DNA of 64,000 bases from NCBI RefSeq assembly GCF_000745005.1, contig NZ_JQNB01000001.1, positions 3,093,501 through 3,157,500 on the forward strand, read 5' to 3'. Position numbers and translations under genes: made by a program. Source of the DNA: Luteibacter sp. 9135 (GTDB lineage Bacteria > Pseudomonadota > Gammaproteobacteria > Xanthomonadales > Rhodanobacteraceae). Every line of letters begins with the position of its first letter. Position 1 is the first letter of the stretch. Shown here piece by piece: positions 2,517 to 25,072 of the stretch. The notes under the pieces were generated by a model. It worked only from the letters and a program-made list of their open reading frames with translations. It searched no databases and was not told where the DNA came from.

Positions 2517-4196
2517 TTACCGTGCGGGATCGGCGGGATCGGCGGGAACGGGGTGATCGGCGGTGTCGGTCAGGGTGGTGGGAAAATCCCCCAGACGCAC
2601 CCGGAGGTAAACCGGACGGTCGCCGAGGTTGAGGCCATAGTCGGTCTCGTCGCCGTTCCACCAGCGGCGGGACACCCAGGTGCCGTTGCGGTATTCGCCT
2701 TCCTCCACGCGCAGTAGCTGGCCCATGCGGCCGTCCTGCCGAGTGCGCTCGAACTCCACGCGCGCGTGGAAGCCGACCAGCAGGTACTCGTCCTTGTCCA
2801 GCGGCAGCAGGAGGATGTGGCCGTCCGCGGTGGGATTGCCCGGCAGTTCCGGCGGCGCGTCGCCCCAGGGCGGGGCGCCGTAGGACACATGGGCCGTCCA
2901 GCCATCGCCCAGCGCGATGTCCGTTTTCGGTTGGCCGCGTTGCTCCACGGCGGCCTTGAGCGTGCCCTTGAACGCCGCATCGGCGACCCGGCCCTGGATC
3001 GGGCCGAGCAGGGCGAAGTTGCGCGCGTGGGCTTCCGTCGCGGCCTTGCGTTCCGCGGTGTCGGCGGCGTGGTCCACGCCGAAGATCGAGAAACCCACGC
3101 CGCCCTGCGCGAGCACGTGGAACAGGTAGGGCGCGTTGCCGGCGTCGTAGCCGGTCTCGGAGATCCACGGCGGGTTGTCGGCGCGGGTGTATTGGCCGAC
3201 CACCTTGGTGAACTCGTGGTAGTCGGTGCTGTAAAGGTCGGTGCCGATCAGGTCGATGTGCGGTGCGCTGGCCTTCCAGGTGTCCAGCACGTTCCAGGTG
3301 GCGCCGCCGCTGGGGTAGTCGTAGCCGGGCATGTGCTTGCCCTTGTAGCGCAGCCACGTGTTGACGTACATCGGCAGCGCGTAGCGCGCCTTGCCGCTGG
3401 CCGCCACCTGGTCGATATAGCGCGCGATGCCGTAGGCGTTGAACTGTTCGTCGGCATCGGCACCGAAGGTCGCCGTCCAGGTGCGGCCGGCTGGCCGGTG
3501 CAGGGCCTGCGCCAGCGCCTCGGGTACCGGTGCGGCGAACGCGCGCTCCGCTGCCGCGGAGTGGTCGCGGATGGCACCGACGCTGCCGGGCTCGTTTTCC
3601 ACCTGCACCATGATCACGGTGTGGCGATCGCCGTCCACCTTGCGCAGGTGGTCCATGAGGGCGGCGAACGCGGCCTGGTCCGCGTGCAGGTTGGCATCGG
3701 CGTAGGGCGAGAGATCTTCCAGCGGCGTGCCGTGTTCATCCAGCGCCCGCGGGTAGCGGGCGGGATCGGCCTTCATCCACTCCGGCACGTAGTGCATCTG
3801 GCCGTTCTTCCAGCTGCCGAACCAGAGCACCACCAGGCGCAGGCCGTGCGCTCGGGCGCCGGCAATCAGCGCGTCGAGGTTGGCCGTGTCGTAGCGACCC
3901 GGGGAGGGCTCGAACTGTTCCCAGTAGACCGGCGCCTCCAGGGTGTTCGGGTGCAGCGCGAGCACCTCGTCCCACACCTCGGGCAGGACGGCGGGCCATG
4001 CGCTGGAGTTGTGCAGCTGCACGGCCAGCATCGTGTAGGGCTTGCCGTCCACCTGCAGCGCGTGGCGTCCGTTCGCATGCACCACCTGGGGCAGCTGCGC
4101 GGCGAGCGCCGGTGCGCTGGCCAGGACCAGGGCACCCGTCAGGGCGACGGCCCGCGCCTGGGCGAAGGCACGCACGCGGCCGGGCAGGCGGATCAA
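2517..4196 (-). CDS. GH35-type beta-galactosidase-like enzyme (DUF5597 C-terminus likely)
   Basis: A 559-residue exported glycoside hydrolase. The N-terminus has a signal sequence ending near APALAAQ. The (beta/alpha)8 barrel has PVYWEQFEP, the acid/base motif VENEPG (Glu202) and the likely nucleophile in WISETGYD (Glu347), as in GH35. The C-terminal beta region resembles the DUF5597 part of Xanthomonas and Bacteroides enzymes. The start is TTG, whose TTGA overlaps the stop of the TonB receptor, indicating translational coupling. Substrate is probably a terminal beta-galactose or related sugar on plant wall glycans, by inference from family and context. Confidence 0.82.
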
Positions 4197-7099
4197 AACG
4201 ACACCGTGGCGCGCATCCAGTAATAGCGGCCCAGCAGGTCGTAGGTGGCGACGTCGGTATTGGCGTTGGTCACGTTGTTGGCGAAATACAGCGGCGGTTG
4301 CTTGTCGGCCAGGTTGTCGACACCGAGCTCGAAGCGCGTGTGCCAGGGTTCGACCTTATAGGCAACCTGCACGTTGTGGTAGACGTATGCGCCGATCTTG
4401 CGCTCGATGCCCGGCAGGTCGGCATCCGCCGAAAGCCCCTGGGTGAGGTCGCTGCTGCCGATCTGGGTGCGGCCGACATAGCGCAGCCGCCAGGAGGCAC
4501 TGAAGTTGCCCATGGACCAGTTCAGCGTGCCCAGGCCGCGCCAGCGGGGGAAGTTGCCATAGGAATAGGTGTAGATGCCGGCGTTGTGGATCACCACCGA
4601 ATGCGGGTCGGTGGTGTCGGGGTTGATGTCGTATCGCTTCACGTAGGTGCCGTTGAGCGAGGCGGCGAACTTGCCGTAGGCCGTTTCGGGAAAGCGATAC
4701 GCCAGGCCGACATCGGTGCCGGCCGCCCACAGCTTGCCGAGGTTGACGGTGGGCTCGGCCACGTAGTTGATGGTGCCGTTGCCGTTGCGATGCACCAGCG
4801 CACAGAACGCGCTGGCCGGGTTGGCGTAGCACTGGTTCAGCACCGTCTGTGCCGACACCTGGGAGATCGTGTCCTTGAGGTTGATCTTCCAGCTGTCCAC
4901 GCTGAAGGACAGGCCGTCCAGCCAGTGTGGATCGTAGACCAGGCCGATGTCGTACGAGCGCCCGGTTTCCGGCTTGAGCTGGTAGCCGGCCAGCACCGAG
5001 CCCGACGCCTTGCCCGACACCTGGCCGTCTGCCTGGCGGTAGGAGCCATCGGTAGGCACGTTGGCGCAGGCCACGTCATGCCCCCCGGTGTAGCCGTTGC
5101 ACGGGTCGTTGGCGGTGGCCGAATCGCCGGCCACGCCCGCGTACAGTTCGCTGGTGTTGGGTGCACGGAACACCTGCGACACCGTACCGCGCAACAGCAG
5201 GTCGTCCAGCGGACGCCATTCCAGCGCCACCTTGCTGTTGGTCTTGCTGCCGACCGTGCTGTAGTCGGACCAGCGCGAGCCCAGCGTCAGGTTGAGCGAG
5301 CGGATGCCCGGCAGGTCGGACAGCAGGGGCACCAGCGCCTCCGCATAGGCTTCCTTGACGTTGAAGCCGCCGGCCAGCGTGGAAGCGCAGAACTCGACCA
5401 CCCCGCACAGTCCGTTCTCGTCGCCGGTCCACAGCGGGTCGGCCTGCGTGGAGGTGCTTTCCTTGCGGTAGGACACCCCGGTGGCGAGGCTGACCGTGCC
5501 GGCGGGCAGGTCGAACAGGTTACCGTTGGCATTGGCTTCCCACTGCTTCACGGTGTACACGCTGGTGACCGTCGGGTTGACGATCATCGACTGCAACGTG
5601 GCCAGGCTGGACGGCGCGTTGAGGTTGAAGATGTCCAGCGGCGTGCAGCCGGCGATCGCATTGCCCGCGCTGCCGCAACGCACGGTGCCGTCGGTATCGC
5701 GGAACGACGGCCCTACCGCCTGGTTGAACTGCGCATAGTCCAGGAAGCCGTTGTTGCGCGATATCTGGCGCACGCGACCGTAGTTGATATCGGTGGACCA
5801 TTGCCAGGTGCTGTCGCCGAACGCGCCGCGCAACCCCGGGTTCACCTGCAGGTTGTACGTGTTGTACTGGTAGCTGCGGTTGCCCAGCACCGTGGCGCGC
5901 GTATTGAGGTCGTTGTACGACATGCCCGTGGCGCGGTCGGTGCCGAAGTTCACCCCGAACGGGTTGTAAGCGCTGGCGGAGGACACCAGGAAATTGTCGC
6001 CGTTGGCGAACACGGGGATCGGCGCGATTACCGACGACGATTTGGTCTTGCTGAAATAGGCGTTGACGTAGCCCTGCACCGAGGGCGTGAACTGGTACTT
6101 GCCCAGGACGAAGGCGTTCGTGCGCTTCTGCGGCGTCTGCAACAGGTTGTAGGGCTGGTAGTTGTACGAATCGCTGCCGTGGTAGCAGTGGAAATCGCCG
6201 CGGCCCGGCTGTCCGCTCACGCCGGGGTTGAGGGTGACGCGCGAGCAGCCGGACGCGGCGGCCAACGCGGTGGACGCATCGGAGCCGTCGTTGAAATTGA
6301 CCGAACCGCCGGGCGTGGCGGACGAGCCCTGCTTCACCGGGGCGCCATCCACCAGATACAGGGCGTCCTTCGAGTAGGGACGGGCGGCCGCCGACACCGC
6401 GTCGATATCGCTGTACGACAGCCCGGCGATGACGCCGTAGTTGCTGCCGGTGTGCCCGGCGGTCAGTGCGAAGTTGCGTCGGTTGCCGTCACTGCGCTTG
6501 CTGGTGCCGAAGTCGCTGGACAGCTGCACGCCATCGAAGTGGTCGCGCAGGATGAAGTTGACCACGCCGCCGATGGCATCCGAGCCGTACACGGCCGAGG
6601 CACCGTCGCTGAGCACCTCGACGCGCTCGATCATGCTCGCCGGAATGGCGTTGACGTCGTTGTAGGCCAGGCGCACGCCATTGACCAGGATCAGCGTGCG
6701 CTTGTCGCCCAGGCCACGCAGGGACACCGTGGAGGCGCCGGTGCCGCCGCCGCTGTTGGTATTGGGATTGGTCGCGTTGCCGGCGATGGAAGGCAACTCC
6801 TGGACCAGGTCGCCCAGCGTCGGCTTGCCGGTGGCCTCGATGGCGGCGCGATCCAGCGTCACCACGGGATTGGCCGTCTCGGTGTCCACTCGGCGGATGC
6901 GCGAGCCCGTGACGGTCACCGCGTCGAGCGTCTTCGCCTCGGTGGCGCTGGCGTCCTTCGGGGTGTCCTGCGCCTGCGAGGTGGCGCAGGTTCCCAGTAG
7001 CGCCAGCGCGATGGCGGCCTGCAACGTCGTGCCGACGAGCCTCGCGGAAAACCCCGTACAGGAGGAGCGGTCGGACCTGGAGCGATGACGTGGATACAT
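4193..7099 (-). CDS. TonB-dependent outer-membrane receptor
   Basis: A 968-residue receptor. ATG at 7099, with GAGGA just upstream, is chosen over an ATG 11 codons earlier. A signal peptide ends near ATSQAQ and is followed by a TonB-box-like LDAVTVTGSRI. The plug domain follows (ELPSIAGN, VSLRGLG, RVEVLSDGASAVYGSDAIGG). The beta-barrel then runs to a terminal aromatic strand, [10 protein letters not shown]. It imports a ligand across the outer membrane using TonB energy. Flanking GH127 and GH35 genes suggest a glycan or glycopeptide rather than iron. It overlaps the GH35 gene by 4 bases. Confidence 0.92.
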   Translation of the reverse strand: MYPRHRSRSDRSSCTGFSARLVGTTLQAAIALALLGTCATSQAQDTPKDASATEAKTLDAVTVTGSRIRRVDTETANPVVTLDRAAIEATGKPTLGDLVQELPSIAGNATNPNTNSGGGTGASTVSLRGLGDKRTLILVNGVRLAYNDVNAIPASMIERVEVLSDGASAVYGSDAIGGVVNFILRDHFDGVQLSSDFGTSKRSDGNRRNFALTAGHTGSNYGVIAGLSYSDIDAVSAAARPYSKDALYLVDGAPVKQGSSATPGGSVNFNDGSDASTALAAASGCSRVTLNPGVSGQPGRGDFHCYHGSDSYNYQPYNLLQTPQKRTNAFVLGKYQFTPSVQGYVNAYFSKTKSSSVIAPIPVFANGDNFLVSSASAYNPFGVNFGTDRATGMSYNDLNTRATVLGNRSYQYNTYNLQVNPGLRGAFGDSTWQWSTDINYGRVRQISRNNGFLDYAQFNQAVGPSFRDTDGTVRCGSAGNAIAGCTPLDIFNLNAPSSLATLQSMIVNPTVTSVYTVKQWEANANGNLFDLPAGTVSLATGVSYRKESTSTQADPLWTGDENGLCGVVEFCASTLAGGFNVKEAYAEALVPLLSDLPGIRSLNLTLGSRWSDYSTVGSKTNSKVALEWRPLDDLLLRGTVSQVFRAPNTSELYAGVAGDSATANDPCNGYTGGHDVACANVPTDGSYRQADGQVSGKASGSVLAGYQLKPETGRSYDIGLVYDPHWLDGLSFSVDSWKINLKDTISQVSAQTVLNQCYANPASAFCALVHRNGNGTINYVAEPTVNLGKLWAAGTDVGLAYRFPETAYGKFAASLNGTYVKRYDINPDTTDPHSVVIHNAGIYTYSYGNFPRWRGLGTLNWSMGNFSASWRLRYVGRTQIGSSDLTQGLSADADLPGIERKIGAYVYHNVQVAYKVEPWHTRFELGVDNLADKQPPLYFANNVTNANTDVATYDLLGRYYWMRATVSF

Positions 7100-7140
7100 G
7101 GCGTTCCTCGGGGCGGTGGCGAAAAGGTGCACGGGGCCGT

Positions 7141-7162
7141 CGAGCGGTCCGCGGACCGCTCG
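7141..7162. promoter_or_regulatory. Perfect 22-bp palindrome upstream of the TonB receptor
   Basis: Eleven bases (CGAGCGGTCCG) are followed immediately by their exact complement, in the 94-base gap between the GH127 stop and the receptor start. It could be an operator, or fold in RNA as an attenuator or processing hairpin that sets receptor expression relative to GH127. There is no loop and no T-run. Confidence 0.45.
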
Positions 7163-7193
7163 GGGTGGGTGGAATGCGTGGTGGCCTTGAAGC

Positions 7194-9131
7194 TCAGGTG
7201 GCGCCGGAGGCGGCGCCTTCGGTTTGCCAGTACACGGCGTAACGCTCGCCCTGGATCGTATTCAGCGGTGCCACGTCGATCACGCCGTGCCGGGTGGTGG
7301 CGCGGTAGGTGAGCGGGGTGTCCGTCGGCACCAGCCACGCCAGTGGATGCGCATCGTCCGGCGCGATCTGCGGTGCGGGCTGGGGTTTGGGTTCGGGTGA
7401 CGGACCCGATTCGTAGCGGCCGTACTGCTGATCGTGCGTGAGGCCCTTCGAACCCAGCCGCGCCGCCAGCACGATTGGACCGATCGTCACCGCCTGCAAC
7501 GTGTCATCGCCGGGCAGGGTCACGCTGCGCAGCGCCATGGGCAGCGTGAGCGACACGCGGTCGCCCGTCTGCCAGGTGCGCCGCAGGGTGAGGTAACTGC
7601 CCGGGGACGCAAAGGTGTCCAGGGCTTCACCGTTCACCTCGACGCGCGCGCCCGGGGCGATCCACGAGGGGATGCGCAGGTTGAGGGCGATGTCGCGCGG
7701 CTGCTTCAGCGTGAACCGGAAATGCGTGGCCGCTTCGCGGGGGAAACCGGTGTCCTGGCGCAGGGTCAGGCCCATCTCGGGCCAGTCCAGCTCGGACGGG
7801 ATGAACAGGTTGACGTGCAGCGCGTCGCCGTCGCGGAAATAGATCGCGTCGTTGAAGCGGGCGAACTCCTCTGCGCCGCTGCCGGTGCAGCACCAGAACG
7901 AGTCCATGGGCGAGTTGTAGAACTTCGCGCCACCGGGCTGCAGCGAGTAGTAGTACAGCTTCATGCCCTGGGCGTCCTGCGTGCCCAGGCGGGCGTTGTA
8001 GAGGTTGCGCTCGTAGTAGTCGAAGGCGCGCGGGTCGCCGCTCCACGCGTAGACATGCCGCGTGAGCTTGAGCAGGTTGTAGGCCACGCAGCATTCCGCC
8101 GCGTAGAGGCCCAGCTGGTCCTTCAGGTCGCCCGGGCCGGTCTTCCAGAATTCGTCGTTGCTGGAGCCACCGGTGGCATAGGTGCGGTTCTGCGTCACCG
8201 TTTCCCAGAAGAATTCCGCGATGCGCCGGTAGCGCGGTTCGCCGGTCAGCTCATAGCGGCGTGCCGCGCCGATCACCTTGGGGATCTGCGTGTTGCTGTG
8301 CAGGCCCTTCAGTTCATCGCGATGCGAGGCCAGCGGGTCGAACAGCGACACCTGGTCGAACCGGTGCGCGGCATCCAGGTAGCGGGTGTCGCCGGTGATG
8401 GCGTAGAGGTCCGCCATCGATTCGTTCATGCCGCCGTATTCGGTCTTGAGGATGTGCGCGATGTCCGTATCGGAGAGCCCGTTCAGCCAGCGCACGGTCC
8501 AGTTGCCGATGCCCCTGGCGACGGCAAGTGCCTGCGTATTTCCGGCCAGCCGGTACATGTCGAGCATGCCGGCCTGGATCTTGTGCACCGTGTAGAACGG
8601 CGCCCAGACCTTCTGGCCGGCGCTCAGCCGGTCGAAGAACGATTCGGGGAAGGCGCTGAGGTAGCCGTTGGGTCGCTGGCAACCTGCCAGGATGCTGACC
8701 AGTTCATCGCCGCGCGCCTTCAGCGTGGCGTCGCCGTGCGCGGACCATGCGATGGCGGCCGCCGAAAGGTAATGCCCGCCGGTGAAATGGCCGCGAAGTT
8801 CGCAATCGGGTTTTTCCCAGCCGCCCAGCGGCTTCGCGGTGGAAGGCAGGCCGGCCTGCACACGGAAGCTGTGCGCCAGGCGGTCCACGGGCAGGCTGTG
8901 CAGGTAGTCGAGGTTGATCGCCGCGGCCCGGCTGAAATCGCTGTCCAGCAGGCGGACCTGGTTCAGCGCGAAAGGCTGCATCCGGCACACCGGCTTCTCA
9001 CGCGCGGCCACGGCGGTCGCGCTGGCCGGGTCGGCGGTATCGAAGGCCTGCAACCGCGGCGCGGCCAGGGCGCTGGCGAGTGCGATCGCACCCGTTTTCA
9101 GAAATCGCCTGCGTTCGTCCGATTCGTGCAT
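7194..9131 (-). CDS. GH127-family (DUF1680) beta-L-arabinofuranosidase
   Basis: A 645-residue Tat-exported enzyme (RRRFLK near the N-terminus, then a hydrophobic stretch ending LQA). ATG at 9131 is chosen because GGGGG precedes it and the Tat motif follows. The DUF1680 barrel shows HFTGGHYLSA, Glu346-x-Cys348 and the Cys414-Cys415 pair in FWCCTGSG. These match the glutamate and zinc-binding/nucleophile cysteines of Bifidobacterium HypBA1. That family removes L-arabinofuranose from hydroxyproline-linked beta-arabinooligosaccharides of extensin. GH146 is a close alternative with related specificity. Confidence 0.85.
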   Translation of the reverse strand: MHESDERRRFLKTGAIALASALAAPRLQAFDTADPASATAVAAREKPVCRMQPFALNQVRLLDSDFSRAAAINLDYLHSLPVDRLAHSFRVQAGLPSTAKPLGGWEKPDCELRGHFTGGHYLSAAAIAWSAHGDATLKARGDELVSILAGCQRPNGYLSAFPESFFDRLSAGQKVWAPFYTVHKIQAGMLDMYRLAGNTQALAVARGIGNWTVRWLNGLSDTDIAHILKTEYGGMNESMADLYAITGDTRYLDAAHRFDQVSLFDPLASHRDELKGLHSNTQIPKVIGAARRYELTGEPRYRRIAEFFWETVTQNRTYATGGSSNDEFWKTGPGDLKDQLGLYAAECCVAYNLLKLTRHVYAWSGDPRAFDYYERNLYNARLGTQDAQGMKLYYYSLQPGGAKFYNSPMDSFWCCTGSGAEEFARFNDAIYFRDGDALHVNLFIPSELDWPEMGLTLRQDTGFPREAATHFRFTLKQPRDIALNLRIPSWIAPGARVEVNGEALDTFASPGSYLTLRRTWQTGDRVSLTLPMALRSVTLPGDDTLQAVTIGPIVLAARLGSKGLTHDQQYGRYESGPSPEPKPQPAPQIAPDDAHPLAWLVPTDTPLTYRATTRHGVIDVAPLNTIQGERYAVYWQTEGAASGAT

Positions 9132-9214
9132 GTCGCCCCCACCGCGTGGCCGCCGCGCATCAGGCCCGGCGTACCCGCACACCCCCCGATGCGCGCTTTC
9201 ATCGTGCCGTCACG

Positions 9215-9252
9215 CACCGGCAGCGTCTTGTGTCATTTACAAGACGCCGGTG
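9215..9252. promoter_or_regulatory. Stable hairpin between the exported 799-residue protein and GH127
   Basis: The inner stem CGTCTTGT/ACAAGACG (8 bp, loop GTCATTT) is continued by the outer stem CACCGG/CCGGTG across a 3-base bulge. It begins 22 bases after the upstream gene's stop on the minus strand. There is no U-tract, so it may be an attenuator, an mRNA-stabilising 3' end or a weak terminator. Confidence 0.5.
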
Positions 9253-9274
9253 CGGCATCCTGCACAGTATCGGG

Positions 9275-11674
9275 TCACGTGAAGGCCAGCGTGACCTCGA
9301 TCCGTTGCCCGGGACGGCCGTGCAGGCGGATATGCTCGCCGCTTAGGTCGCCGGCCGGTGCGGCGGCACCGTCGATCCGCACCATGCCACGCGTCGCCTG
9401 TGGCGGCGTGCGCAGCGTGAGCCAGACCGCCTTTGGCGTCGCTGCGTCGGGCAGCACCACCGTGGCGGACAGCATGCCCGCGCTGCGTCGCAGGTGCAGG
9501 CTGCACCGTCCCCACCGCGTCGGCGCCGCATCCAAGGACAGCGGATGGTTTCCGGTCCACCAGGCATGCGGCACGGCACGGCCCAGTCGCAGGGTGGCAC
9601 CGTCGCTGTCGTCGTGGACGAAGGCCCAGCGCAGCAGCAGGGGAATCGTCATCTGCGCCGGCATGCAGAACAGCGGCATGCCTCCGGCTATGTCGGTGAC
9701 CTCGCCGGCAGTCCAGCTGCCGGGCGTATGCCCGTGGTAGCGGTGCGCGTAGAGGAACAGCAGGTATTCGTCCACGCGATCCAGGCGCAGCAGCTGCTGC
9801 GCGTAACCGTAAGAGATGAAACCGAGGATATCGCGGCTCTTCGGGTCCACCGGGCCGATGTTGGCCACGACACCGAGGCTGGTCGCCCCATGGCCGCGCA
9901 TCGCGTCGATCACCCGGTGCGCCAGGTCATCCGGCAGCACGTCGGCCTGCAACAGTTCCGCATAGGCGCGGTGCGGCCATTGCTGCTCGCTGGGATGTTC
10001 GGCGGCGAGTGCCTCGCGGAAGGTGCGCTTCACACCGGGCAACGGCGGCACGTAAGGCGGCTTGAGGTCGTGGCGCACGCTGGCGCGCACACTGGCCACC
10101 AGCCGCTCGCGCAGGGCGGTGGCGCGCGTCGTCCAATGCGACGCGGTGGCGACGTCGCCCGGTGCGATACGCGACCATGCGCCGGCCAGATCGGTGAGTC
10201 CGCGCACGGCCAGCGCGCTGTTGGCGAAGTACGGCTTCCACCACAGCATGGGATCGGGGAACAGGCAGGCGTCGGATTCGTTCCAGCCGTGGATGAGGCC
10301 ATGGCCCGGGTCGGTGGCCGCCAGCCGCAGCGACGCGTCGTGCAGTTCGAGCAGGATGGCCGCGGTGGCCTCGATCTTCGCACGGTGCTTGCGGCACAGC
10401 GCCAAGTCGCCCGTGTAGGCCACGTATCGCGCGATCAGCGAGAGCGTGAGGCCGAACTGGCCCATCTCCGCGCCGCGCATGTTGATCATGCCGTCCGGCT
10501 GGACGAAATCGGTGAAATAGCCGTCGAACACCGCGGCGGCCTGGGCGAAGCGGCCCCATTCCAGGTTGGCGTAGAGCGAACTGGTGAAGGTGTCCTGGAA
10601 GCCGTCGTACTCGTTGCCGTAGTAGTCGCGATCCACCGCGCCGTACTTGGGGTAGGTGCCTTCCGGGCGTACGACCAGCTCGCGCGCGAACGCGTAGCGC
10701 GCCATGTCCGCCCAGCCGGGGGCCGGTATCGTCGCCACCGCCATGTCGGCCAGTTCGGCATGCCAGCGGTCGTGAAAGCGCAGCAGCGCGGCGTGGAACG
10801 CATCGGCGGTGGGGGCCTGCCGTCGCGGCGGGCAGGCCGGATAGCTGTGCCCGTAGACGACACGCGTCATCGCGCCATGTTCGACGAGCGCCGTGCGATG
10901 CCAGGTCTGCACCACGAAGCGATCCGTGGCATCCACGTCGGCGAGGACGATCACGTCGTACCAGCGCTCCGCGTCGATCGGCACCACCTTGTGCACCGCC
11001 GGTAGCCAGCCACCGAGCAGGCCCTCGCGACGGCGGGCCACTTTCTTCGGGTCGTGCAGGTCGGCGAAGGCCTGGTCGGCGTGGTAGCCGCGCGTGCTGC
11101 CGGAGGTGTAGACCGGCATCGTGTCCAGGCACTGGCGGGTGCCGACGAAGGTCGTCCACGGCAGGCGGCCGTAATAGTCCTCCGGGTTAAGCACCGAGGC
11201 CGGTGGCGGCGCGGCCCGCCGCACCTGGTCTTCGTCGGGCTGTCCCTTGGCCAGCAGGCGGTCGGCAAGCAGGTCGGGGCCGGCGACCGCGATCTCGGCC
11301 AGTGCGAGGCCGAGGTACGGCTTGTCGGCCTCGTCCCAGGTGGCCTCGGTCCGCTTGCCGATCACCACGGCCTGCGTGCCGTCGGTGAGCACGAGGTCGC
11401 CATCCGTGTGGCGCAGGTTTTCCAGCACGCGCCACGCGCGGTCGCCGTCGCGGAAGGTCGCCACGGGCGCGAAGCCGTCGAGGGACACGCCAGGCAAGGG
11501 CACCCGCGAGGCGGGCGGCGGCGCACTGGTGGTGGGCGCGACAGGTGCCCCGCCGGTATCGCCGCGCCACAGCGCTTCGGCCGACAGGGGTGCGAGGCCG
11601 GCCGCCGCGCTGGCGGCGGCGAGGGTGCGCAGGAAGTCGCGGCGCGCCATCGGCGAGCGGTAGTGGTCACTCAT
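9275..11674 (-). CDS. Tat-exported protein, probable (alpha/alpha)6-barrel carbohydrate-active enzyme
   Basis: A 799-residue protein I cannot place in a named family. The N-terminus has a Tat signal (ARRDFLRTLAAASAAAG). The middle is rich in Trp, Tyr and acidic residues (NPEDYYGRLPW, GNEYDGFQDTF, GLIHGWNESD, FPDPMLWWKPYF) with alternating helical segments, as in six-hairpin glycosidases. The C-terminal part looks like a beta-sandwich. It overlaps the permease gene by 8 bases, so it belongs to the hydroxyproline operon. A role in cutting a hydroxyproline-linked glycan is inferred from context only. ATG at 11650 is an alternative start. Confidence 0.6.
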   Translation of the reverse strand: MSDHYRSPMARRDFLRTLAAASAAAGLAPLSAEALWRGDTGGAPVAPTTSAPPPASRVPLPGVSLDGFAPVATFRDGDRAWRVLENLRHTDGDLVLTDGTQAVVIGKRTEATWDEADKPYLGLALAEIAVAGPDLLADRLLAKGQPDEDQVRRAAPPPASVLNPEDYYGRLPWTTFVGTRQCLDTMPVYTSGSTRGYHADQAFADLHDPKKVARRREGLLGGWLPAVHKVVPIDAERWYDVIVLADVDATDRFVVQTWHRTALVEHGAMTRVVYGHSYPACPPRRQAPTADAFHAALLRFHDRWHAELADMAVATIPAPGWADMARYAFARELVVRPEGTYPKYGAVDRDYYGNEYDGFQDTFTSSLYANLEWGRFAQAAAVFDGYFTDFVQPDGMINMRGAEMGQFGLTLSLIARYVAYTGDLALCRKHRAKIEATAAILLELHDASLRLAATDPGHGLIHGWNESDACLFPDPMLWWKPYFANSALAVRGLTDLAGAWSRIAPGDVATASHWTTRATALRERLVASVRASVRHDLKPPYVPPLPGVKRTFREALAAEHPSEQQWPHRAYAELLQADVLPDDLAHRVIDAMRGHGATSLGVVANIGPVDPKSRDILGFISYGYAQQLLRLDRVDEYLLFLYAHRYHGHTPGSWTAGEVTDIAGGMPLFCMPAQMTIPLLLRWAFVHDDSDGATLRLGRAVPHAWWTGNHPLSLDAAPTRWGRCSLHLRRSAGMLSATVVLPDAATPKAVWLTLRTPPQATRGMVRIDGAAAPAGDLSGEHIRLHGRPGQRIEVTLAFT

Positions 11675-15016: not shown

Positions 15017-15029
15017 GGCGACTCTCCGG

Positions 15030-18043: not shown

Positions 18044-19635
18044 GCGTCGGCTCCCACGTCGGCGGTGGTCCAGCGACCGTCGATCCGGCGCTGCACGCCG
18101 CCGGGGTTGCGGTCGCGCAGGTCCGCCGGCAGCAGCGCGTCGGGGACGTTGTCGTAGCTGTGCAGCGCGGTGAAGCGATGGATGGCCGCGGGCATGCCGA
18201 CGGCGGTGAACCCGGCATGGCTGGTGGCGGGGAAGGGCCCGCCATGGTTCATCGCGGCGCTGACCGCCACGCCGGTGGGCATGCGGTTGGCGATCAGACG
18301 ACCCACGCGCGGCCGCAGGTGACGTGCGATGGCTTGCCATAGCGCGTCGTCGCGGCCGTCGGCCGCGCGGTAGAGCGTGCCGGTGAGGTTGCCCTCGAAC
18401 GCCTCCGCCACGCCAGCGAACGCCACGTCGTCGTCCACGCGGACCAGCAGGCTGACCGGGCCGAACGCCTCGGCCTGCAGGGCACGTGCATTCTTCAGGA
18501 ACGCCTCGGCGTGCACGCTCAGCAGCGTCGGCTGGAAACGGTAGCCGGCGTCCTTGCCGGGGCCTCCGCCGGCGAGCACGGTCGCGCCGGCCGCGGTCAA
18601 CCCGGCGACGGCGCGGCTCAGGCTGTCGAGGACACCCCGGGAAAACAACGGCCGCGGCGCGGCGTCGGCGAAACGACGCGTGGCCGCGGCGACGAAGGCG
18701 TCGCCGGCGGCACCCGCCGGTACCACCACGATGCCGGGGTTGGTGCAGAACTGGCCGCTGCCCATGGTGCAGGAGGTGAAGAACGCCTCCGCCAGGGCAT
18801 CCGCACCCTCGGCCAGCGCGCCCGGCAGCAGGAACACCGGGTTGACGCTGGACATCTCGGCGTAGATGGGCACGCCCGCCGCATCGGCGGCCTGCTTCAG
18901 GGCGAGGCCACCGGTACGACTGCCGGTGAAGCCGATCGCGCCCAGACGCGAATCGCCCGCCAGGGCCGCGCCCGTCGCGTTGTCGAAGTGGTAGAGCAGC
19001 TGCACCGACGCGGGCGGCAGGCCGGCTGCCTGCACGGCATCGCGCGCGATCTGCGCCAGTCGCCGCGAGGTGGACGGGTGCGACGGATGCGCCTTGGCGA
19101 TCACCGGGTTGCGGGCCGCGATGGCGGACGCGAAATCGCTGCCGGCCACGGCGTTGAAGGCGAAGGGGAAGTTGTTGGGCCCGAACACCAGCACCGGCTT
19201 GCCCAGCGGCGCGCGATGCGCACGCAGCCCGCTGGCCGTATCGATCGTGGCATCGCTCCAGGCCTGCTCGCGCACCGCGCGTGCCGCCTGGCGCAACTGG
19301 CCGCTGGCGCGGGGCAGTTCCACCGAGCGCAGGCGCGGCTCCGCCGGCAACGCCGTCTCGGCCGTGGCCAGCGCGACCAGCGTCTCCGCGTCGGCGTCGA
19401 TGCCCTCGGCGTAGCGCTCGAGGAAATCGGCGATGCATTCCGGCGGCAGCGCCGCGAGGTCGGCGGCAACCGAGACGGCGGCCACGAGGGCCGCCTCCGC
19501 ATCCGCCGCGCCACTGATCGGGAAGGCCGGCCCGATCGCTTCACCCCGCGTGGGATCCTCGGCGCGGAACGTCCCGGTGGGCGCATCGGCCGCGCGCCAC
19601 CGTCCGCCGATCAGTACCTGCGGCTGGTCGCTCAT
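18040..19635 (-). CDS. 2-Oxoglutarate semialdehyde dehydrogenase (2,5-dioxovalerate dehydrogenase)
   Basis: A 531-residue NAD(P)+ aldehyde dehydrogenase, last enzyme of hydroxyproline breakdown, forming 2-oxoglutarate. Features are PNNFPFAFN, the nucleotide-binding FTGSRTGG, catalytic Glu260 in AEMSSVNP and catalytic Cys297 in GSGQFCTNPG. This signature belongs to the KGSADH clade shared by sugar-acid and hydroxyproline routes. It begins 4 bases after the DapA-like gene on the same strand and overlaps the M24 peptidase gene. The neighbouring epimerase and deaminase fix the assignment to the hydroxyproline route. Confidence 0.92.
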   Translation of the reverse strand: MSDQPQVLIGGRWRAADAPTGTFRAEDPTRGEAIGPAFPISGAADAEAALVAAVSVAADLAALPPECIADFLERYAEGIDADAETLVALATAETALPAEPRLRSVELPRASGQLRQAARAVREQAWSDATIDTASGLRAHRAPLGKPVLVFGPNNFPFAFNAVAGSDFASAIAARNPVIAKAHPSHPSTSRRLAQIARDAVQAAGLPPASVQLLYHFDNATGAALAGDSRLGAIGFTGSRTGGLALKQAADAAGVPIYAEMSSVNPVFLLPGALAEGADALAEAFFTSCTMGSGQFCTNPGIVVVPAGAAGDAFVAAATRRFADAAPRPLFSRGVLDSLSRAVAGLTAAGATVLAGGGPGKDAGYRFQPTLLSVHAEAFLKNARALQAEAFGPVSLLVRVDDDVAFAGVAEAFEGNLTGTLYRAADGRDDALWQAIARHLRPRVGRLIANRMPTGVAVSAAMNHGGPFPATSHAGFTAVGMPAAIHRFTALHSYDNVPDALLPADLRDRNPGGVQRRIDGRWTTADVGADA

Positions 19636-19638
19636 GGA

Positions 19639-20544
19639 TCAGAGCCCCGGCCGGGTGGCGATCGCGTGGTCGATCACCTTCATGGCGTATTCGCGCTCGG
19701 CACCGACTACCGGCAGGCGCGGGGCGCGTACGGTTTCGCTGCCCATGCCCACGCGCGCCTGTACCAGCTTGATCAGCTGCACGAAGGTGGGCACGGTATC
19801 CAGGCGCAGCAGCGGCAGGAACCAGGCATACAGCGATTCCGCCGCCTTGGCGCCACCGTCGCGGGCCAGCTCGAACAGCTTCACCGATTCCGCCGGATAC
19901 GCGTTGACCAGGCCAGCCACCCAGCCCACCGCACCCATGCTCACGCCTTCCACCAGCGCATCGTCCATGCCGACCAGCAGCTGCAGGCGATCGCCCACGA
20001 GCGCGCGGATGGCGGCGAAGCGACGCACGTCGCCCGAGGATTCCTTCACGGCCTGCAGGTTGGCGTGCTGGCCGGCCAGTTCGGCCATCTGCTCGGGCGT
20101 GAAATCGGTCTTGTAGGCCACCGGGTTGTTGTAGAGCATGCAGGGCAGGTCGGTCGCGGCGATCACGGCCTTGGCGTGCGCGCTCATCTCGCGCCAGTCG
20201 GTCGAGTACACGTACGGCGGCAGCACCATCAGGCCGGCGCAGCCGATGGCCTTGGCTTCCTTGGCAAGGCGAACGGCCTCGTCGGTGGACAGCGAGGCGA
20301 TGCCCGGGATCACCGGTGCGCGGCCGTCGAGGGCCTTGACCAGCGTGCGCAGCACCGCCGTCTTGTCGTCGAAGCTCAGGGTGGCCGCTTCGCCCAGCGA
20401 ACCGAGCGGTACGATGCCCTTGCAGCCGGCGTCGATCATCTGCACGGCATGCTTGGCGAGGAAGTCGTGGTCGATCTGGCCGTCGGCCGTGAACGGGGTG
20501 GTGATGGCGGGAAGGACGCCGTGCCAGAGGGATGTGTTGCTCAT
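19639..20544 (-). CDS. DapA-family deaminase (1-pyrroline-4-hydroxy-2-carboxylate deaminase)
   Basis: A 301-residue class I aldolase-fold protein of the DHDPS family. The Schiff-base Lys167 lies in AVKESSGD and Tyr138 in LYNNPVAY; the phosphate-loop equivalent is PLGSLGEAATL. In hydroxyproline operons this branch converts pyrroline-4-hydroxy-2-carboxylate to 2-oxoglutarate semialdehyde plus ammonia. Placement between the dehydrogenase subunits and the semialdehyde dehydrogenase supports that over lysine synthesis. Start ATG at 20544. Confidence 0.9.
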   Translation of the reverse strand: MSNTSLWHGVLPAITTPFTADGQIDHDFLAKHAVQMIDAGCKGIVPLGSLGEAATLSFDDKTAVLRTLVKALDGRAPVIPGIASLSTDEAVRLAKEAKAIGCAGLMVLPPYVYSTDWREMSAHAKAVIAATDLPCMLYNNPVAYKTDFTPEQMAELAGQHANLQAVKESSGDVRRFAAIRALVGDRLQLLVGMDDALVEGVSMGAVGWVAGLVNAYPAESVKLFELARDGGAKAAESLYAWFLPLLRLDTVPTFVQLIKLVQARVGMGSETVRAPRLPVVGAEREYAMKVIDHAIATRPGL

Positions 20545-20557
20545 GTGGATGTGCCTC

Positions 20558-21847
20558 TCAAGGTGAAGGTAGGGAACAGGAAAGGTCCGGCTCGCCCAGG
20601 GTGGACAGGCGAGCGGGAAAGAGCGGGGGGCGCGGATCGGTGCGCAGGCCATGGCCCAGTTCGGCGAGCGCGGCGCCGCAGATGCGGCCCTGGCACGCGC
20701 CCATGCCGCAGCGGGTGGCGAGTTTGGCGCTGCGTGCGTCGGTATGCGTGCGCACGGCGCCCAGCGTGACGTCCTCGCAGCGACAGACCAGGGTGTCGTC
20801 GCGGGCCAGGTCCCGCACACGCGGCGACAACGTGAAATGCCGCTGCAGGTGTGTGGCAAACGCGCGGGCGTGATCGCGTCGGCGTAGCAGCGCGTCGGGC
20901 ACGCGGGCACCGGCGGCGGCGAGCCCGGCGATCTCGCCCTCCAGGCAAGCGCTGTCGCGTCCGCCGATACCGCAGCTTTCGCCGGCGGCGAAGGTGTCGT
21001 CACGGCTGGTGCGCTGGTAAGGGTCGACGACGATCCGGGGATGCACCTCGTTATCGCCGACGCGCGTCGCACAACCGAGTTGTCGGGCGAGGGCCAGGTC
21101 AGGCACCAGTCCGAAGCCGGCGGCCAGCACGTCGCACGCGACATGCCGCGTGCCATGGCCGTCGTCGATATCGGCGGCCACCAGCGCCTGCTCGCCTACG
21201 GCGGCGGTGACCACGCTACCGGTGTGATAGCCCACGCCGCGCAGCGACAGGCGCAGCGCGGCGGCCTGCGTGGCCTTGCCCGGCCAGCGCCAGAGCCCGC
21301 GGGCGAACGCGTTGATGGCGGCGGCCGGTGCCTGCTCATGGATGCCCAGTACGATGGCGCCGTGCCGGTGCGCGGTGGCGGCGGCGGCCAGTAACAGTGG
21401 ACCGCTGCCGGCGATCAACACGCGCCGTCCGCGCAGGGCCCAGCCCTGTTTCAGCAGCGCCTGCAGACCACCGGCGCCGACCACGCCGGGCAGCGTCCAG
21501 CCGGGAAACGGCAGCAGCAGTTCGCGGGCGCCGGTGGCGACCACCAGCGAGCGGAAAGGCAGCAGGTAACCGCGCCGCGGGTCCTGCAACAGTAACTGGC
21601 CGGGTTCCGCGGCGATCACCTGCGTCTCGGGCAGCCAGGTCACGCCGCGCGTGGTCAGCGCGCCGTCGATGCTGCGCCGGGCCATGGCCGGGTAGCCGTA
21701 CGCGATGTCCTGCCGCCAGACCTGTCCACCAGCCGCGGGCTGACTGTCGATCAGGGCCACGCGGTGTCCGTGCGCGGCGGCGGCGGTGGCCGCGGCCAGT
21801 CCGGCCGGGCCCGCGCCCACGACGGCGATGTCGAAGCGGTCATGCAT
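20558..21847 (-). CDS. D-hydroxyproline dehydrogenase, NAD(P)/FAD pyridine-nucleotide oxidoreductase subunit
   Basis: A 429-residue flavoprotein with two dinucleotide folds: VVGAGPAGLAAATA at the N-terminus and RRVLIAGSGPLL in the middle. The C-terminus carries a BFD-like [2Fe-2S] cysteine cluster (CRCEDVTLG then CGMGACQGRICG). This is the architecture of HcnB/OoxA-type subunits, which work with a DadA-like subunit and a small ferredoxin. It overlaps the ferredoxin gene by 8 bases. The complex oxidises cis-4-hydroxy-D-proline. Confidence 0.88.
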   Translation of the reverse strand: MHDRFDIAVVGAGPAGLAAATAAAAHGHRVALIDSQPAAGGQVWRQDIAYGYPAMARRSIDGALTTRGVTWLPETQVIAAEPGQLLLQDPRRGYLLPFRSLVVATGARELLLPFPGWTLPGVVGAGGLQALLKQGWALRGRRVLIAGSGPLLLAAAATAHRHGAIVLGIHEQAPAAAINAFARGLWRWPGKATQAAALRLSLRGVGYHTGSVVTAAVGEQALVAADIDDGHGTRHVACDVLAAGFGLVPDLALARQLGCATRVGDNEVHPRIVVDPYQRTSRDDTFAAGESCGIGGRDSACLEGEIAGLAAAGARVPDALLRRRDHARAFATHLQRHFTLSPRVRDLARDDTLVCRCEDVTLGAVRTHTDARSAKLATRCGMGACQGRICGAALAELGHGLRTDPRPPLFPARLSTLGEPDLSCSLPSP

Positions 21848-22085
21848 CGGTATCCACCCTCATGCCCTCGCGCACGGTGACCTGGCAGGCGCGTTGCTGC
21901 GCCAGGCCGTCGATGCCCACACGGCACTCGAAACACACGCCCATGCCGCACACGGCGGCGCGATGTTGTCCGCCGACCGAGCGGCGGAACGGCCGTTCCA
22001 GGCCGAGCAGCGCGGCGGCGACGCTGATCCGCTCCGGCACCTCGACCGGCAGGCCGTCTATCACGATGCGTACATGCCCGCTCAT
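21840..22085 (-). CDS. D-hydroxyproline dehydrogenase, small [2Fe-2S] ferredoxin subunit
   Basis: An 81-residue ferredoxin-like protein (HcnA/SoxD-type) hidden inside a longer open frame. The start ATG at 22085 overlaps the preceding flavoprotein's stop as ATGA. The cysteine pattern AVCGMGVCFECRVG plus a later Cys in QQRACQV is that of plant-type [2Fe-2S] domains used in multi-subunit imino-acid dehydrogenases. It likely carries electrons between the two flavoprotein subunits on either side. Confidence 0.85.
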   Translation of the reverse strand: MSGHVRIVIDGLPVEVPERISVAAALLGLERPFRRSVGGQHRAAVCGMGVCFECRVGIDGLAQQRACQVTVREGMRVDTDA

Positions 22086-23179
22086 CGGGCCACCCGCGCG
22101 GGATCGTAGGGCGAGGCATCGATGGCCGTGGGGCGTCCGAGCAGCCGGTCGATCAGCAGCTGCGCGCTGCCCAGCGAGGTGGTGACGCCCAGGCCCTCGT
22201 GCCCGGCGGCCACCCATGTGTCGGTCATGCCGGGAACACGGCCGAGGTAGGGCAAGCCATCGACGCTCACCGGACGGAAACCGGTCCAGATGCGCACGGC
22301 CGACAAGTCGCGCAGGAAGGGCAGGAAACGGAAACTGCGCTGGAGCATGCGCTGCACCATGGCCATGGAAACGCCGGCGTCGGCCGCATCGTATTCGCGC
22401 GACGAACCGATCAGGATCTGGCCCGTGGGGCGCGGCTGCACGTTGAACGCCACGCTGGCCGCATCCGCACCGTGGGCGCTGTCCGCGTAGCCCAGTTCGA
22501 GCAGCTGGTGGGTTACCTTGCCGGCATAGCGGTCGGTGATCACCAGGTGGCCCTTGCGGGCACGGATGGGTAGCGTCGGCAGCAGCTGTGGCAGGGCACA
22601 CCCGGTGGCGACCAGGACGGGGCCGCGCAGCGTGCTGCCGTCGTGCAGCACCACCCCTTGCGGATAGAGACTGGCGGCCGTCTGCCGGTGCAGCATGGCG
22701 CCCGCGCGCAGCGCACGATCGACCAGGTGGCGCGCGACCGCCGGCGGATACACCACGGCTTCGTTCGGAATGCGCAGGCCACCGGCCAGGCCGGGCGCCA
22801 GGGCGGGCTCGTGTTCGTAGAGCGCGCGGGCGTCCAGCGGCTCGGCCTGCACACCGGCCGCGAGGAGGCGATCGAGCTTGTCCGGGATGCGCGCCAGTTC
22901 GTCGTCGTTGCTGGCCACCCACAGGGTGCCGCAGCGGCTGAACTCCGCGCCCGGCAGGTTGGCGAAGGCGTCCCACAACCCCAGCGAATAGCGGGACAGG
23001 GCGAACTCGGCCGGATCGTCGTCCATGGCAACCAGGTGTCCCATGGCCGCCGCGGTGGCGCCGCCGCCGATCGCGCCGGGCTCCACGATGGCGACGCTTA
23101 GCCCGGCCGCGCTGGCGCGTTCCGCACAGGCGGCACCGACGATGCCGGCACCGATCACGATCAGGTCGAACGTGCTCAC
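22082..23179 (-). CDS. D-hydroxyproline dehydrogenase, DadA-like FAD subunit
   Basis: A 365-residue D-amino-acid-oxidase-fold protein (HcnC/OoxB/DadA type). The N-terminal FAD motif is [16 protein letters not shown] and a C-terminal [14 protein letters not shown] / [12 protein letters not shown] segment binds the cofactor. It should hold the active site that oxidises cis-4-hydroxy-D-proline to the pyrroline. The start is GTG at 23179, overlapping the epimerase stop as GTGA. The lack of an alternative ATG and this coupling favour it. Confidence 0.88.
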
Positions 23180-24117
23180 GCGGCGCCGATACCCCAGGCC
23201 AGCGGGTCGGCCTCATCGATCAGCAGGGTGCCTTGCATCGTGACATGGGCACTGCCGGTGATCCGGGGCAAGACGCCGCGCTCGCCGTGCCGGTAGGTGG
23301 CCTCGAAGACGCTGCCCAGGATGCCTGCCTGATGCCAGACCTGGCCCGGATCGAGCTTGCCGTCGGCGGCCAGGCAGGCCACCTTCGCGCTGGTGCCGGT
23401 GCCGCACGGCGAACGGTCGTAGGCCATGCCCGGGCAGAGGACGAAGTTGCGTGCGTCGTTGCCGCCCTCGGGGTCGTGGCTGTTGAGTTCGATGTGATCG
23501 ATTTCCTGACCGCCCGCACCGGTGATGCCGGCGTGCTCCAGGCTGGCGCGGATGGCTTCGGTGTACGCGGTGAGCCCGCGCTGGTTGGCCAGCGTGAGCG
23601 GCAGCGGCGTTTCGCCCGTGATGAAGAACCAGTTGCCGCCCCAGGCGACGTCACCGGTGATGCTGCCGTAGCCCGCGACATCGACCGACACGCTGCGGCG
23701 GTGACGGTAGCTCTCGACGTTTTCGATGGCCACGCGGCCGTCGTCGAGCAGTTCGACGCCCACCATGCCCACCGGCGTTTCCAGGCGATGGCGCCCCGGC
23801 GCGATGCGGCCCAGGTGCTGCAAGGTGCGTACCAGGCCGATGCTGCCGTGTCCGCACATGCCCAGGTAGCCAACGTTGTTGAAGAAGATCACCCCGGCAC
23901 AGGCCGTGGGATCGGTCGGCTCTACCAGCAGGGCGCCCACCATGGTGTCCGAGCCGCGCGGTTCGCAGGCGATCGCCTGCCGCCAGGTGTCGTGTTGCGC
24001 GCGCATGCGCTGCAGTCGCGCGGCCAGCGGGCCGTCGCCGAGATCGGGAAAACCGGAAAGAACGACACGCGTGGGTTCGCCGCCGGTGTGGGAGTCGATG
24101 AAGTCGATTCGATGCAT
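23176..24117 (-). CDS. 4-Hydroxyproline 2-epimerase (proline racemase family)
   Basis: A 313-residue cytoplasmic enzyme converting trans-4-hydroxy-L-proline to cis-4-hydroxy-D-proline. Both catalytic cysteines are present: Cys88 in GMCGHG and Cys238 in [10 protein letters not shown] trans-3-hydroxyproline dehydratase would have Ser or Thr at one site, so epimerase is favoured. ATG at 24117 precedes the conserved [15 protein letters not shown]; the frame extends 31 codons upstream with no family similarity. First gene of the operon, divergent from the AraC regulator. Confidence 0.93.
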
Positions 24118-24331
24118 GGGTCCATGCTCACCGGGCAGCCCCTGTGGCGTATAGAAAGCTTTGCTATCGGCAGATGCGGAATTTTGCATAATTGGCTGCA
24201 AGTTCGGCAAGCCGTGCCGAGAATGCCTGTTTCCTTGGCTTTCGCGGCGCGAAGCGGTTTATGATGCATCGCGCCATGGTCCATACGGTCCTGAAACCCG
24301 TGCGCAGCTGTGCCGAAGGAGCATCCTTACC
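24118..24331. promoter_or_regulatory. Divergent control region of the hydroxyproline operon and its AraC regulator
   Basis: A 214-base AT-richer gap between divergent starts. A near-palindrome ATAG-AAAGCTTTG-CTAT lies at 24151-24167, close to the epimerase start, and CGGCA-N5-TGCCG at 24205-24219. Both are operator candidates for the adjacent regulator. Confidence 0.5.
24235..24265 (+). promoter_or_regulatory. Sigma70-like promoter candidate for the PAS-AraC gene
   Basis: TTGGCT (24235-24240) and TATGAT (24260-24265) are separated by 19 bases, longer than ideal. The -10 matches the consensus at five of six positions and lies 67 bases before the start codon. Confidence 0.35.
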
Positions 24332-25072
24332 ATGAAGATTTCCGCCGATGAACTCGAGCCGTTGTTCGATGCGTTGCCCGATGTCGTGTTCTTCGTCAAG
24401 GACACCGAAGGCCGGTACACGCATGCCAACCTGACCCTGGTCCGCCGCCTCGGCCTGAAGCAGCGCAGCGAGGTGATCGGTCGCGGCGTCACCGAACTGT
24501 TTCCCGCGCTCATGGGTGGGTCTTACGCCGCACAGGATCGCCGGGTGCTCGCCGGCGAAGTGATCGAGAACCAGCTCGAGGTCCACATCTTCAGCAACCG
24601 GGCGCCTGGCTGGTGCCTCACCTGCAAGCGGCCGGTGTCCTCGCGCGGCGAGATTCGCGGCGTGATCGGTATCTCGCGCGATCTGGGCCTTCCCGACGGC
24701 AAGCATCCCACGTACGAGCGGCTGCGCCGCGTGCTCGGCTACATGCAGGAGCACTACGGCGAAGGCGTGCGAATTCCCGCGCTGGCCGAACTGGCCGGGT
24801 TGTCGGTCGCGCAGCTGGAGCGGCATTTCCGCCGGGTGTTCCAACTGACCCCGCAGCAGGTGCTGACCAAGTTGCGTATCGAGGCGGCCATGCGCCTGCT
24901 CGGCGGCGACGACAACGTGGCGTCCATCGGCATGGCCTGCGGCTTCGTGGACCAGAGCGCCTTCGCCCGGCAGTTCAAGGCCACCGTGGGCATGACCCCG
25001 AGCGAATACCGCGCCGTGGCGGCCCTGGCGGCACCGGCGCGCAACACGCGGGGCGTAACGAACTCCGCCTGA
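24332..25072 (+). CDS. PAS-domain AraC-family transcriptional regulator
   Basis: A 246-residue regulator. The N-terminal half is a PAS sensor (LPDVVFFVKDTEGRYTHAN, then GVIGISRDLG). The C-terminal ~100 residues form the two-helix-turn-helix AraC domain (LAELAGLSVAQLERHFRRVF and VASIGMACGFVDQSAFARQF). ATG at 24332 has AAGGAG ten bases upstream; the frame is open further upstream without recognisable sequence. Divergent position makes it the likely activator of the hydroxyproline operon, responding to a small ligand through the PAS domain. The ligand is unknown. Confidence 0.88.
   Translation: MKISADELEPLFDALPDVVFFVKDTEGRYTHANLTLVRRLGLKQRSEVIGRGVTELFPALMGGSYAAQDRRVLAGEVIENQLEVHIFSNRAPGWCLTCKRPVSSRGEIRGVIGISRDLGLPDGKHPTYERLRRVLGYMQEHYGEGVRIPALAELAGLSVAQLERHFRRVFQLTPQQVLTKLRIEAAMRLLGGDDNVASIGMACGFVDQSAFARQFKATVGMTPSEYRAVAALAAPARNTRGVTNSA

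Follow-up and report, generated by a model that had tools for sequence, protein, structure and literature searches.

A predicted utilisation locus for hydroxyproline-rich glycoproteins in Luteibacter sp. 9135, with one candidate new glycosidase family

We analysed a stretch of 64,000 nucleotides from Luteibacter sp. 9135 (contig NZ_JQNB01000001.1, positions 3,093,501 to 3,157,500), hereafter the window; the whole genome is a single contig of 4.49 Mb. Luteibacter is a soil and plant-associated bacterium. On the minus strand of the window, 14 genes run from position 24117 down to 2517, behind a divergent plus-strand gene for a PAS-AraC regulator (Table 1). We consider it probable that they form a locus for the utilisation of hydroxyproline-rich glycoproteins (HRGPs), which harvests hydroxyproline (Hyp) and not only arabinose. 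An earlier note, made from the sequence alone, had described genes of these kinds, without the regulator, as one minus-strand run within 2517 to 25072. Matches to Pfam and NCBIfam bear out the Hyp pathway, the M24 peptidase, the two DUF885 proteins, the permease, the TonB receptor and the glycoside hydrolase (GH) of family GH35; the Tat-type (twin-arginine translocation) protein is present too, with no Pfam domain. The minus-strand run itself holds as far as 24117; position 25072 is the end of the plus-strand regulator.

Table 1. Features of the locus in window coordinates, with the evidence for each assignment.
Feature	Position	Strand	Evidence
AraC-family regulator, PAS_4	24332..25072	+	Pfam HTH_18 3.9e-24, PAS_4 2.3e-20
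Divergent intergenic region, 214 bases	24118..24331		between HypE ATG and regulator ATG, by hand from translations
trans-4-hydroxyproline 2-epimerase (HypE)	23176..24117	-	NF010577 456.3 bits, cut-off 442
FAD-dependent D-hydroxyproline oxidase/dehydrogenase subunit (DAO)	22082..23179	-	PF01266 1.7e-61; role from pathway context
2Fe-2S subunit (Fer2_4), D-Hyp dehydrogenase	21840..22085	-	PF13510 6.6e-19; role from context
Pyr_redox_2 subunit, D-Hyp dehydrogenase	20558..21847	-	PF07992 1e-28; role from context
DHDPS-family pyrroline-4-hydroxy-2-carboxylate deaminase	19639..20544	-	PF00701 5.3e-61; role from pathway context
Aldehyde dehydrogenase (ALDH), likely 2-oxoglutarate semialdehyde dehydrogenase	18040..19635	-	PF00171 4e-45; role from pathway context
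M24 Xaa-Pro dipeptidase-type peptidase	16841..18043	-	PF00557 4.1e-53, PF01321 (Creatinase_N) 1.2e-21
DUF885 protein (DUF885a), exported, putative metallopeptidase	15030..16817	-	PF05960 2.8e-167; export by eye
Second exported DUF885 protein (DUF885b)	13247..15085, likely start 15016	-	PF05960 8.1e-153
APC amino-acid permease (AA_permease_2)	11667..13250	-	PF13520 6.6e-43
P0001, Tat-type 799-residue protein (799/815 by start), without Pfam family	9275..11674	-	
GH146-type beta-L-arabinofuranosidase	7194..9131	-	PF07944 (Beta-AFase) 1.1e-111; Tat-like RRRFLK
TonB-dependent outer-membrane receptor	4193..7099	-	PF00593 3.4e-32, PF07715 3.7e-23
GH35 (DUF5597) beta-galactosidase-like enzyme, start uncertain	2517..4196	-	PF18120 1.4e-33, PF01301 1.9e-6

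The first part of the run holds the complete set of enzyme families expected to lead from Hyp to 2-oxoglutarate (epimerase, D-Hyp oxidase, deaminase and semialdehyde dehydrogenase). The families of the trans-4-hydroxyproline pathway are listed in PMC4113996, and the closest PDB sequence to HypE (4juu, E 3e-149) is named there as the X. campestris 4HypE. No signal peptide was seen by eye in the M24 peptidase. The DUF885 proteins are putative peptidases; DUF885a shows the stretches HEGVPGH and EGWA in its translation. The GH35 enzyme matches 8faa in the PDB (E 1e-207) and scores 462.6 bits with NF051902, under the cut-off of 500 for that model. A TonB receptor, several exported glycosidases (export judged by motif and by eye) and a regulator thus stand in one conserved run. 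No SusD family occurs among the Pfam matches of its genes, so this is not a SusC/SusD polysaccharide utilisation locus (PUL) of the Bacteroidetes type, and neither GH121 nor GH43 is among these matches.

Junctions were computed by hand from the coordinates of the open reading frames (ORFs), and the many overlaps of 4 or 8 bases noted earlier are indeed present. Neighbouring genes overlap by 4 bases at four junctions (HypE/DAO, DAO/Fer2, ALDH/M24 and DUF885b/permease), or at five provided the TTG start of the GH35 gene behind the TonB receptor is right, and by 8 bases at two (Fer2/Pyr_redox and permease/P0001, with the P0001 ATG at 11674). The remaining junctions among the first eleven genes are gaps of 3–23 bases, one of which depends on the chosen DUF885b start, and the arabinofuranosidase gene is flanked by larger gaps of about 143 and 94 bases. 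The regulator ORF opens at 24161, with the ATG at 24332 as its likely start. Judging from its position, the 214-base divergent region is likely the promoter/operator of the run; a sigma-70 and terminator scan of window positions 1500–20000 gave matches at chance level.

The arabinofuranosidase had been described as a GH127-type enzyme carrying the Glu/Cys set of HypBA1. The residues are there, as E363 and C365 (Glu-x-Cys) and C431 and C432 (Cys-Cys), and these zinc ligands are common to GH127 and GH146 (PMC10850190). The class did not hold. The nearest solved relative is the GH146 enzyme BT0349 (5opj, E 4e-97), and 8k7y gives E 9e-59, whereas HypBA1 itself (3wkw) is far away at E 5e-12. We therefore rejected a plain GH127 assignment; by these sequence comparisons the enzyme belongs nearer to GH146. 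XeHypBA1 (XCV2724) of Xanthomonas euvesicatoria is a GH146 enzyme for which Araf-beta-Hyp was the predominant substrate cleaved (PMC10850190). In the genome of X. euvesicatoria the window enzyme finds one match, an ORF of 791 residues with 38% identity over 580 columns. As the published length of XeHypBA1 is 791 aa (PMC6085000), this ORF is presumably XeHypBA1, identified by organism, length and place and not by an accession. The window enzyme is also 39% identical to the XeHypBA1-type protein of X. melonis, and no further PF07944 gene was found in the Luteibacter genome.

The most unusual member of the run is P0001. It opens with the Tat-like motif RRDFLR, although the Pfam TAT_signal model stays under its cut-off (18.7 vs 22.7 bits), and Luteibacter sp. 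PvP120 has a protein with 95% identity to it. It had no match at the curated cut-offs of the Pfam and NCBIfam glycoside hydrolase families, and may still belong to a CAZy family. At E values up to 1, Pfam returned weak and uninformative matches only, and PDB sequence searches with the protein alone or as a profile reached E 0.094 and 0.26 at best. A first structure model built on 25 sequences (predicted local distance difference test, pLDDT, 70.4) was superseded by a second one built on 60. The predicted structure is a six-hairpin (alpha/alpha)6 barrel with flanking beta-sandwiches, the architecture of the six-hairpin glycosidase superfamily; among the families covered by the structure-search lists, no single GH family stands out within that superfamily. 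Conservation was read from two sets, P0001 with 24 of 120 listed proteins, and the window protein with 49 of the 80 loci introduced below and 10 database proteins. E458 and E650, numbered from the ATG at 11650, are a conjectural catalytic pair. The family is large (at least 1565 relatives in one search), and the predicted fold makes it a candidate new glycosidase family.

A synteny search in related genomes found the block conserved in part of the genus, in part of the family Rhodanobacteraceae and in Xanthomonas. Three of 22 congeners (G015, G018 and G021) each have true orthologues of the arabinofuranosidase (73–89% identity), P0001 (69–79%) and HypE (76–83%), with the gene order kept, and none of the other congeners searched has a HypE match. 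Elsewhere in the genus P0001 is found only as two fragments in the 80%-complete G006, one of them adjoining a permease gene, and the arabinofuranosidase family as weak matches of 23–33% identity. Weak matches (23–42%) to the arabinofuranosidase in a further 16 of the 41 genomes were not counted as orthologues; HypE-family matches were also seen in eight genomes outside the genus. In G015, the GH35 gene, DUF885a and a close permease are absent from the stretch read, and the block is therefore variable at its rim.

Of 147 genomes of the family, 15, from 6 of 26 genera, contain P0001 and 58 a near full-length HypE. Near full length here means 360 bits or more, counted by eye, with the match in G189 covering 239 residues; another 29 genomes, whose matches were all shorter or weaker, were excluded. 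All 15 genomes with P0001 also carry HypE, 8.7–11.6 kb away and, in G080, on the opposite strand (distances were taken by hand, and a shared contig in draft genomes was deduced from matching coordinates). A naive hypergeometric calculation for this co-occurrence gives 2.5e-7, which is too generous because of shared ancestry. The PAS-AraC regulator adjoins the Hyp epimerase in G015, G018, G021, G024, G036, Rhodanobacter sp. ANJX3, X. hortorum and X. phaseoli. Because the block is conserved in congeners, in the family sample and in Xanthomonas, a chance grouping of these genes is unlikely, and we rejected mere chance neighbourhood.

The GTDB species genomes were then scanned with two short peptide patterns of the P0001 family, which gave 157 relatives, and 80 loci were kept. 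Partners were counted from matches of at least 33% identity within 10 kb or less, a threshold that leaves weaker TonB receptors and DUF885 proteins uncounted. Among the 45 Xanthomonadales loci, GH146 or GH121 was present in 41, a peptidase of the set in 36, a TonB receptor in 42, GH35 in 28 and the GH121 and GH43 pair in 21. The run of X. hortorum and X. phaseoli reads AraC, then divergently HypE, DAO, (Fer2), Pyr, (DHDPS), ALDH, M24, DUF885, DUF885, permease, DPP-IV, (GH35), P0001, TonB receptor, GH121, (GH43), DPP-IV and TonB receptor, where brackets mark genes called in one of the two species only, and in X. hortorum it extends to an XeHypBA1-type GH146. GH43 was called as an ORF in X. phaseoli and found by tblastn in X. 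hortorum (locus L077); the GH35 of X. phaseoli was found by tblastn. In X. phaseoli (L139-L140) one TonB receptor and the region of GH121 are split into several reading-frame pieces, which agrees with the decay that PMC6085000 noted for the arabinoside genes. In X. melonis, a DUF5694 gene (L071:8477-9643, minus strand) opposes the operon direction between GH35 and P0001, and at this position X. hortorum has an equally long ORF that points the same way.

Locus L086 of X. euvesicatoria holds P0001, a TonB receptor, a HypBA2-like GH121 (6m5a, E 9e-212) and a GH43 of 528 aa, which is the published length of XeHypAA (PMC6085000). The published Hyp-arabinoside operon therefore looks like the far end of the locus described here. 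In two Rhodanobacter loci, L058 (12297-13628) and L059 (12496-13713), a GH27 alpha-galactosidase-like gene lies between P0001 and GH146. Extensin serines bear alpha-galactose. Where GH43, GH121 and GH146 cover Ara1-4-Hyp, P0001 would cut another linkage, for example Ser-linked galactose.

Alternatively, the target might be a polysaccharide or an arabinogalactan protein (AGP), such as arabinan, side chains of rhamnogalacturonan I (RG-I) or AGP galactan, with the Hyp genes serving free Hyp and a shared regulator, not one polymer, holding the two halves together. In favour of this, BT0349, to which the arabinofuranosidase is closest among solved structures, comes from an RG-I locus, the GH35 family consists of beta-galactosidases, and two Asticcacaulis loci contain a gene of the GH2 beta-galactosidase family. 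However, the Pfam matches of the run include no backbone enzyme for pectin, arabinan or galactan, and the peptidases and the GH121/GH43 pair, which is specific for Hyp-arabinosides in X. euvesicatoria, recur in the Xanthomonadales loci at the frequencies given above. We regard this alternative as improbable.

HypE was located in the genomes of 33 of the 80 loci, with a match in 32. It lies on the contig of P0001 within about 28 kb in 26 of the 33 (21/23 Gammaproteobacteria, 2/3 Alphaproteobacteria and 3/7 Acidobacteriota, the last three at 55–59% identity). Outside Xanthomonadales the gene order differs, which suggests repeated joining. The acidobacterial locus L106 runs from HypE to ALDH, DUF885, P0001, DPP-IV and DUF5695, and the Stakelama locus L098 has distant Hyp genes followed by a DAO-family gene, DPP-IV, DUF5695, P0001, GH146, a distant TonB receptor, GH35 and DUF885. 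Ten of 29 Acidobacteriota loci, as well as the Stakelama locus, encode close to P0001 a DUF5695 protein (PF18951) some 950 residues long (for example L106:14859-17720 and L098:7191-10043), which may be a further HRGP enzyme. GH146 lies 400 bases or less from P0001 in eight of the 29 Acidobacteriota loci (L109, L114, L115, L120, L121, L122, L126 and L129) as well as in L098.

This proximity is one of two points against the idea that P0001 is not a glycosidase at all. The six-hairpin scaffold could here carry a different activity, such as that of a lyase, phosphorylase or epimerase, the rest of the locus working as proposed: the fold also hosts phosphorylases and other enzymes, and the catalytic residues of P0001 were guessed from conservation alone. 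A phosphorylase role is disfavoured because of the Tat-type signal. We think such a non-glycosidase role unlikely, if still worth serious attention. The fuller proposal is that P0001 founds a new glycosidase family dedicated to HRGP glycans, that it is the marker of a type of locus widespread in Xanthomonadales, Acidobacteriota and Sphingomonadales/Caulobacterales, where the glycans are taken off to open the imino-acid backbone, and that it gives the known Hyp-arabinoside enzymes of Xanthomonas their missing purpose; we would put its chances at about even.

For the locus as a whole we infer the following scheme, with substrate, compartments and induction read from gene content. The TonB receptor would take glycopeptides in across the outer membrane, and the exported GH146, P0001 and GH35 enzymes would strip their O-glycans in the periplasm. 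The bared Pro/Hyp-rich peptide would be cut by the exported DUF885 peptidases, in relatives also by DPP-IV-type peptidases, and the APC permease would bring in Hyp or small Hyp peptides. In the cytoplasm, the M24 enzyme would split Xaa-Hyp dipeptides, and the epimerase, the three-part D-Hyp dehydrogenase, the deaminase and the aldehyde dehydrogenase would convert Hyp to 2-oxoglutarate. The divergent PAS-AraC protein probably turns the run on. HRGPs, extensin among them, are wall polymers that resist digestion, and extensin in particular, as opposed to other HRGPs, is the presumed target. That the sugar coat and the imino-acid backbone of one polymer would be taken together, as the earlier note proposed, is supported by comparative genomics (all 15 family genomes with P0001, X. 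hortorum and X. phaseoli).

In 12 genomes with the locus, no match to AraA_N (L-arabinose isomerase) was found. Arabinose is therefore not the obvious prize, which weakens the view that it is the only one; the prize seems to be Hyp. The same genomes have 2–4 matches to PF00920 (IlvD/Edd family), exactly two in seven of them, and two is the number expected for IlvD and Edd. By this count an oxidative arabinose route stays open in G000, G021, G123 and G192; G055 has four matches, two of which look like pieces of one gene.

Several observations weigh against the harvest of Hyp from glycoproteins. The third IlvD/Edd-family gene of G000 (three PF00920 matches) makes an oxidative arabinose route possible there. 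GH35 suits beta-galactosides (AGP, xyloglucan) better than extensin, and the Luteibacter locus is without GH43 and GH121, the enzymes used on Ara4-Hyp in Xanthomonas. P0001 is absent from 43 of the 58 HypE genomes of the family, and in G024 the clustered genes include DUF885, M24 and a distant permease, again without P0001; the glycan half therefore seems to be an add-on to a Hyp-peptide core. In seven of the 33 loci HypE was not near P0001 or the case was unclear (L102, with contig breaks, L103, L104, L107, L114, L118 and L125). Both Alphaproteobacteria with a near 'HypE' show only 38–39% identity, so this gene may encode a different member of the proline-racemase family. The partners looked for were all missing from 9 of 29 Acidobacteriota loci, from 1 of 5 Alphaproteobacteria and from the sole Shewanella locus, some of them on short contigs. 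Ten neighbours, scanned in L103, L107, L111 and L116 together, included no glycosidase; L103 has an M48 peptidase, and L116 a symporter and an outer-membrane barrel.

Parts of the proposed system have been described before. Enzymes of the GH121, GH43 and XeHypBA1 types from X. euvesicatoria are proven on Hyp-arabinosides, and the bacterium reportedly cannot use L-arabinose, its deletion mutants stay pathogenic and the purpose of these enzymes was asked (PMC6085000). The same paper already proposed that HRGPs become accessible to proteases once deglycosylated, and that they might be broken down by a prolyl peptidase encoded next door; the prolyl-oligopeptidase neighbour of the X. euvesicatoria operon is broken. 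The xehypBA2-xehypAA operon and xehypBA1 resemble the present system in the homologous L086 locus and in the related GH146 enzyme, but the Luteibacter run lacks GH121 and GH43, and the available part of PMC6085000 mentions no Hyp catabolic genes, DUF885, permease or P0001 for X. euvesicatoria. HypBA1, HypBA2 and HypAA of Bifidobacterium longum likewise include beta-L-arabinofuranosidases acting on Hyp-linked arabinose. There, however, arabinose is freed as a carbon source, Hyp catabolism is not mentioned in the available text (PMC6085000, PMC7263609), and uptake is by an ABC transporter in place of the TonB receptor of Luteibacter. HRGP use has also been proposed for Latescibacteria, where a GH127 gene and enzymes acting on AGP were the grounds (PMC4454575).

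The HypR regulons of Proteobacteria share the Hyp-to-2-oxoglutarate genes, proline peptidases and, in some, a TonB receptor (PMC5343134). They differ in having the GntR regulator HypR, where Luteibacter has PAS-AraC, and collagenases, with collagen as the proposed source and no glycosidases mentioned in the accessible text. By analogy with the regulons of Alteromonadales, the peptides used by Luteibacter could come from collagen or from some other Hyp protein that is not of plant origin, with the glycosidases as chance neighbours or serving another purpose, and Hyp-DUF885 clusters without P0001 do exist (G024, L047). The Pfam matches of the run include no collagenase family, beta-L-arabinofuranose is a plant sugar, and P0001 and HypE remain together in six genera of the family and in Xanthomonas; a collagen-type source is thus very improbable. 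PULs with TonB receptors also bring receptor, exported glycosidases, catabolism and regulator into one locus. The Luteibacter locus would differ from them in harvesting mainly an imino acid and in having peptidases as core parts, besides its lack of SusD matches, and may best be seen as a utilisation locus that eats a glycoprotein and includes one candidate new enzyme family.

The earlier note knew of no described system joining both halves, and we recognised none that joins HRGP deglycosylation and Hyp catabolism in one locus in the literature searched, which comprised partial texts and neither papers citing PMC6085000 nor subscription journals. As far as those texts go, earlier bacterial systems cover one half, arabinose removal or Hyp/collagen catabolism, and the Luteibacter locus appears to join both. 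The related Xanthomonas run suggests why X. euvesicatoria keeps enzymes that cut off a sugar reportedly unusable to it, and a possible answer to the question asked in PMC6085000 is that removal of the sugars gives access to the Hyp backbone, which would serve as a source of carbon and nitrogen. The locus also points to the uncharacterised P0001 family with a clear biochemical hypothesis.

Beyond the locus, a PF13354 beta-lactamase-family protein (2.4e-44) is encoded close by at window positions 426-1544 on the plus strand. An apparent exopolysaccharide cluster occupies 28140-47247 (YjbH, UDP-sugar dehydrogenase, bacterial sugar transferase, beta-helix protein, GT2 and Wzc). Long open frames on the minus strand at 49890-54700 and 58883-63697 have no Pfam match at 1e-8; some of them may be antisense frames in this high-GC genome.

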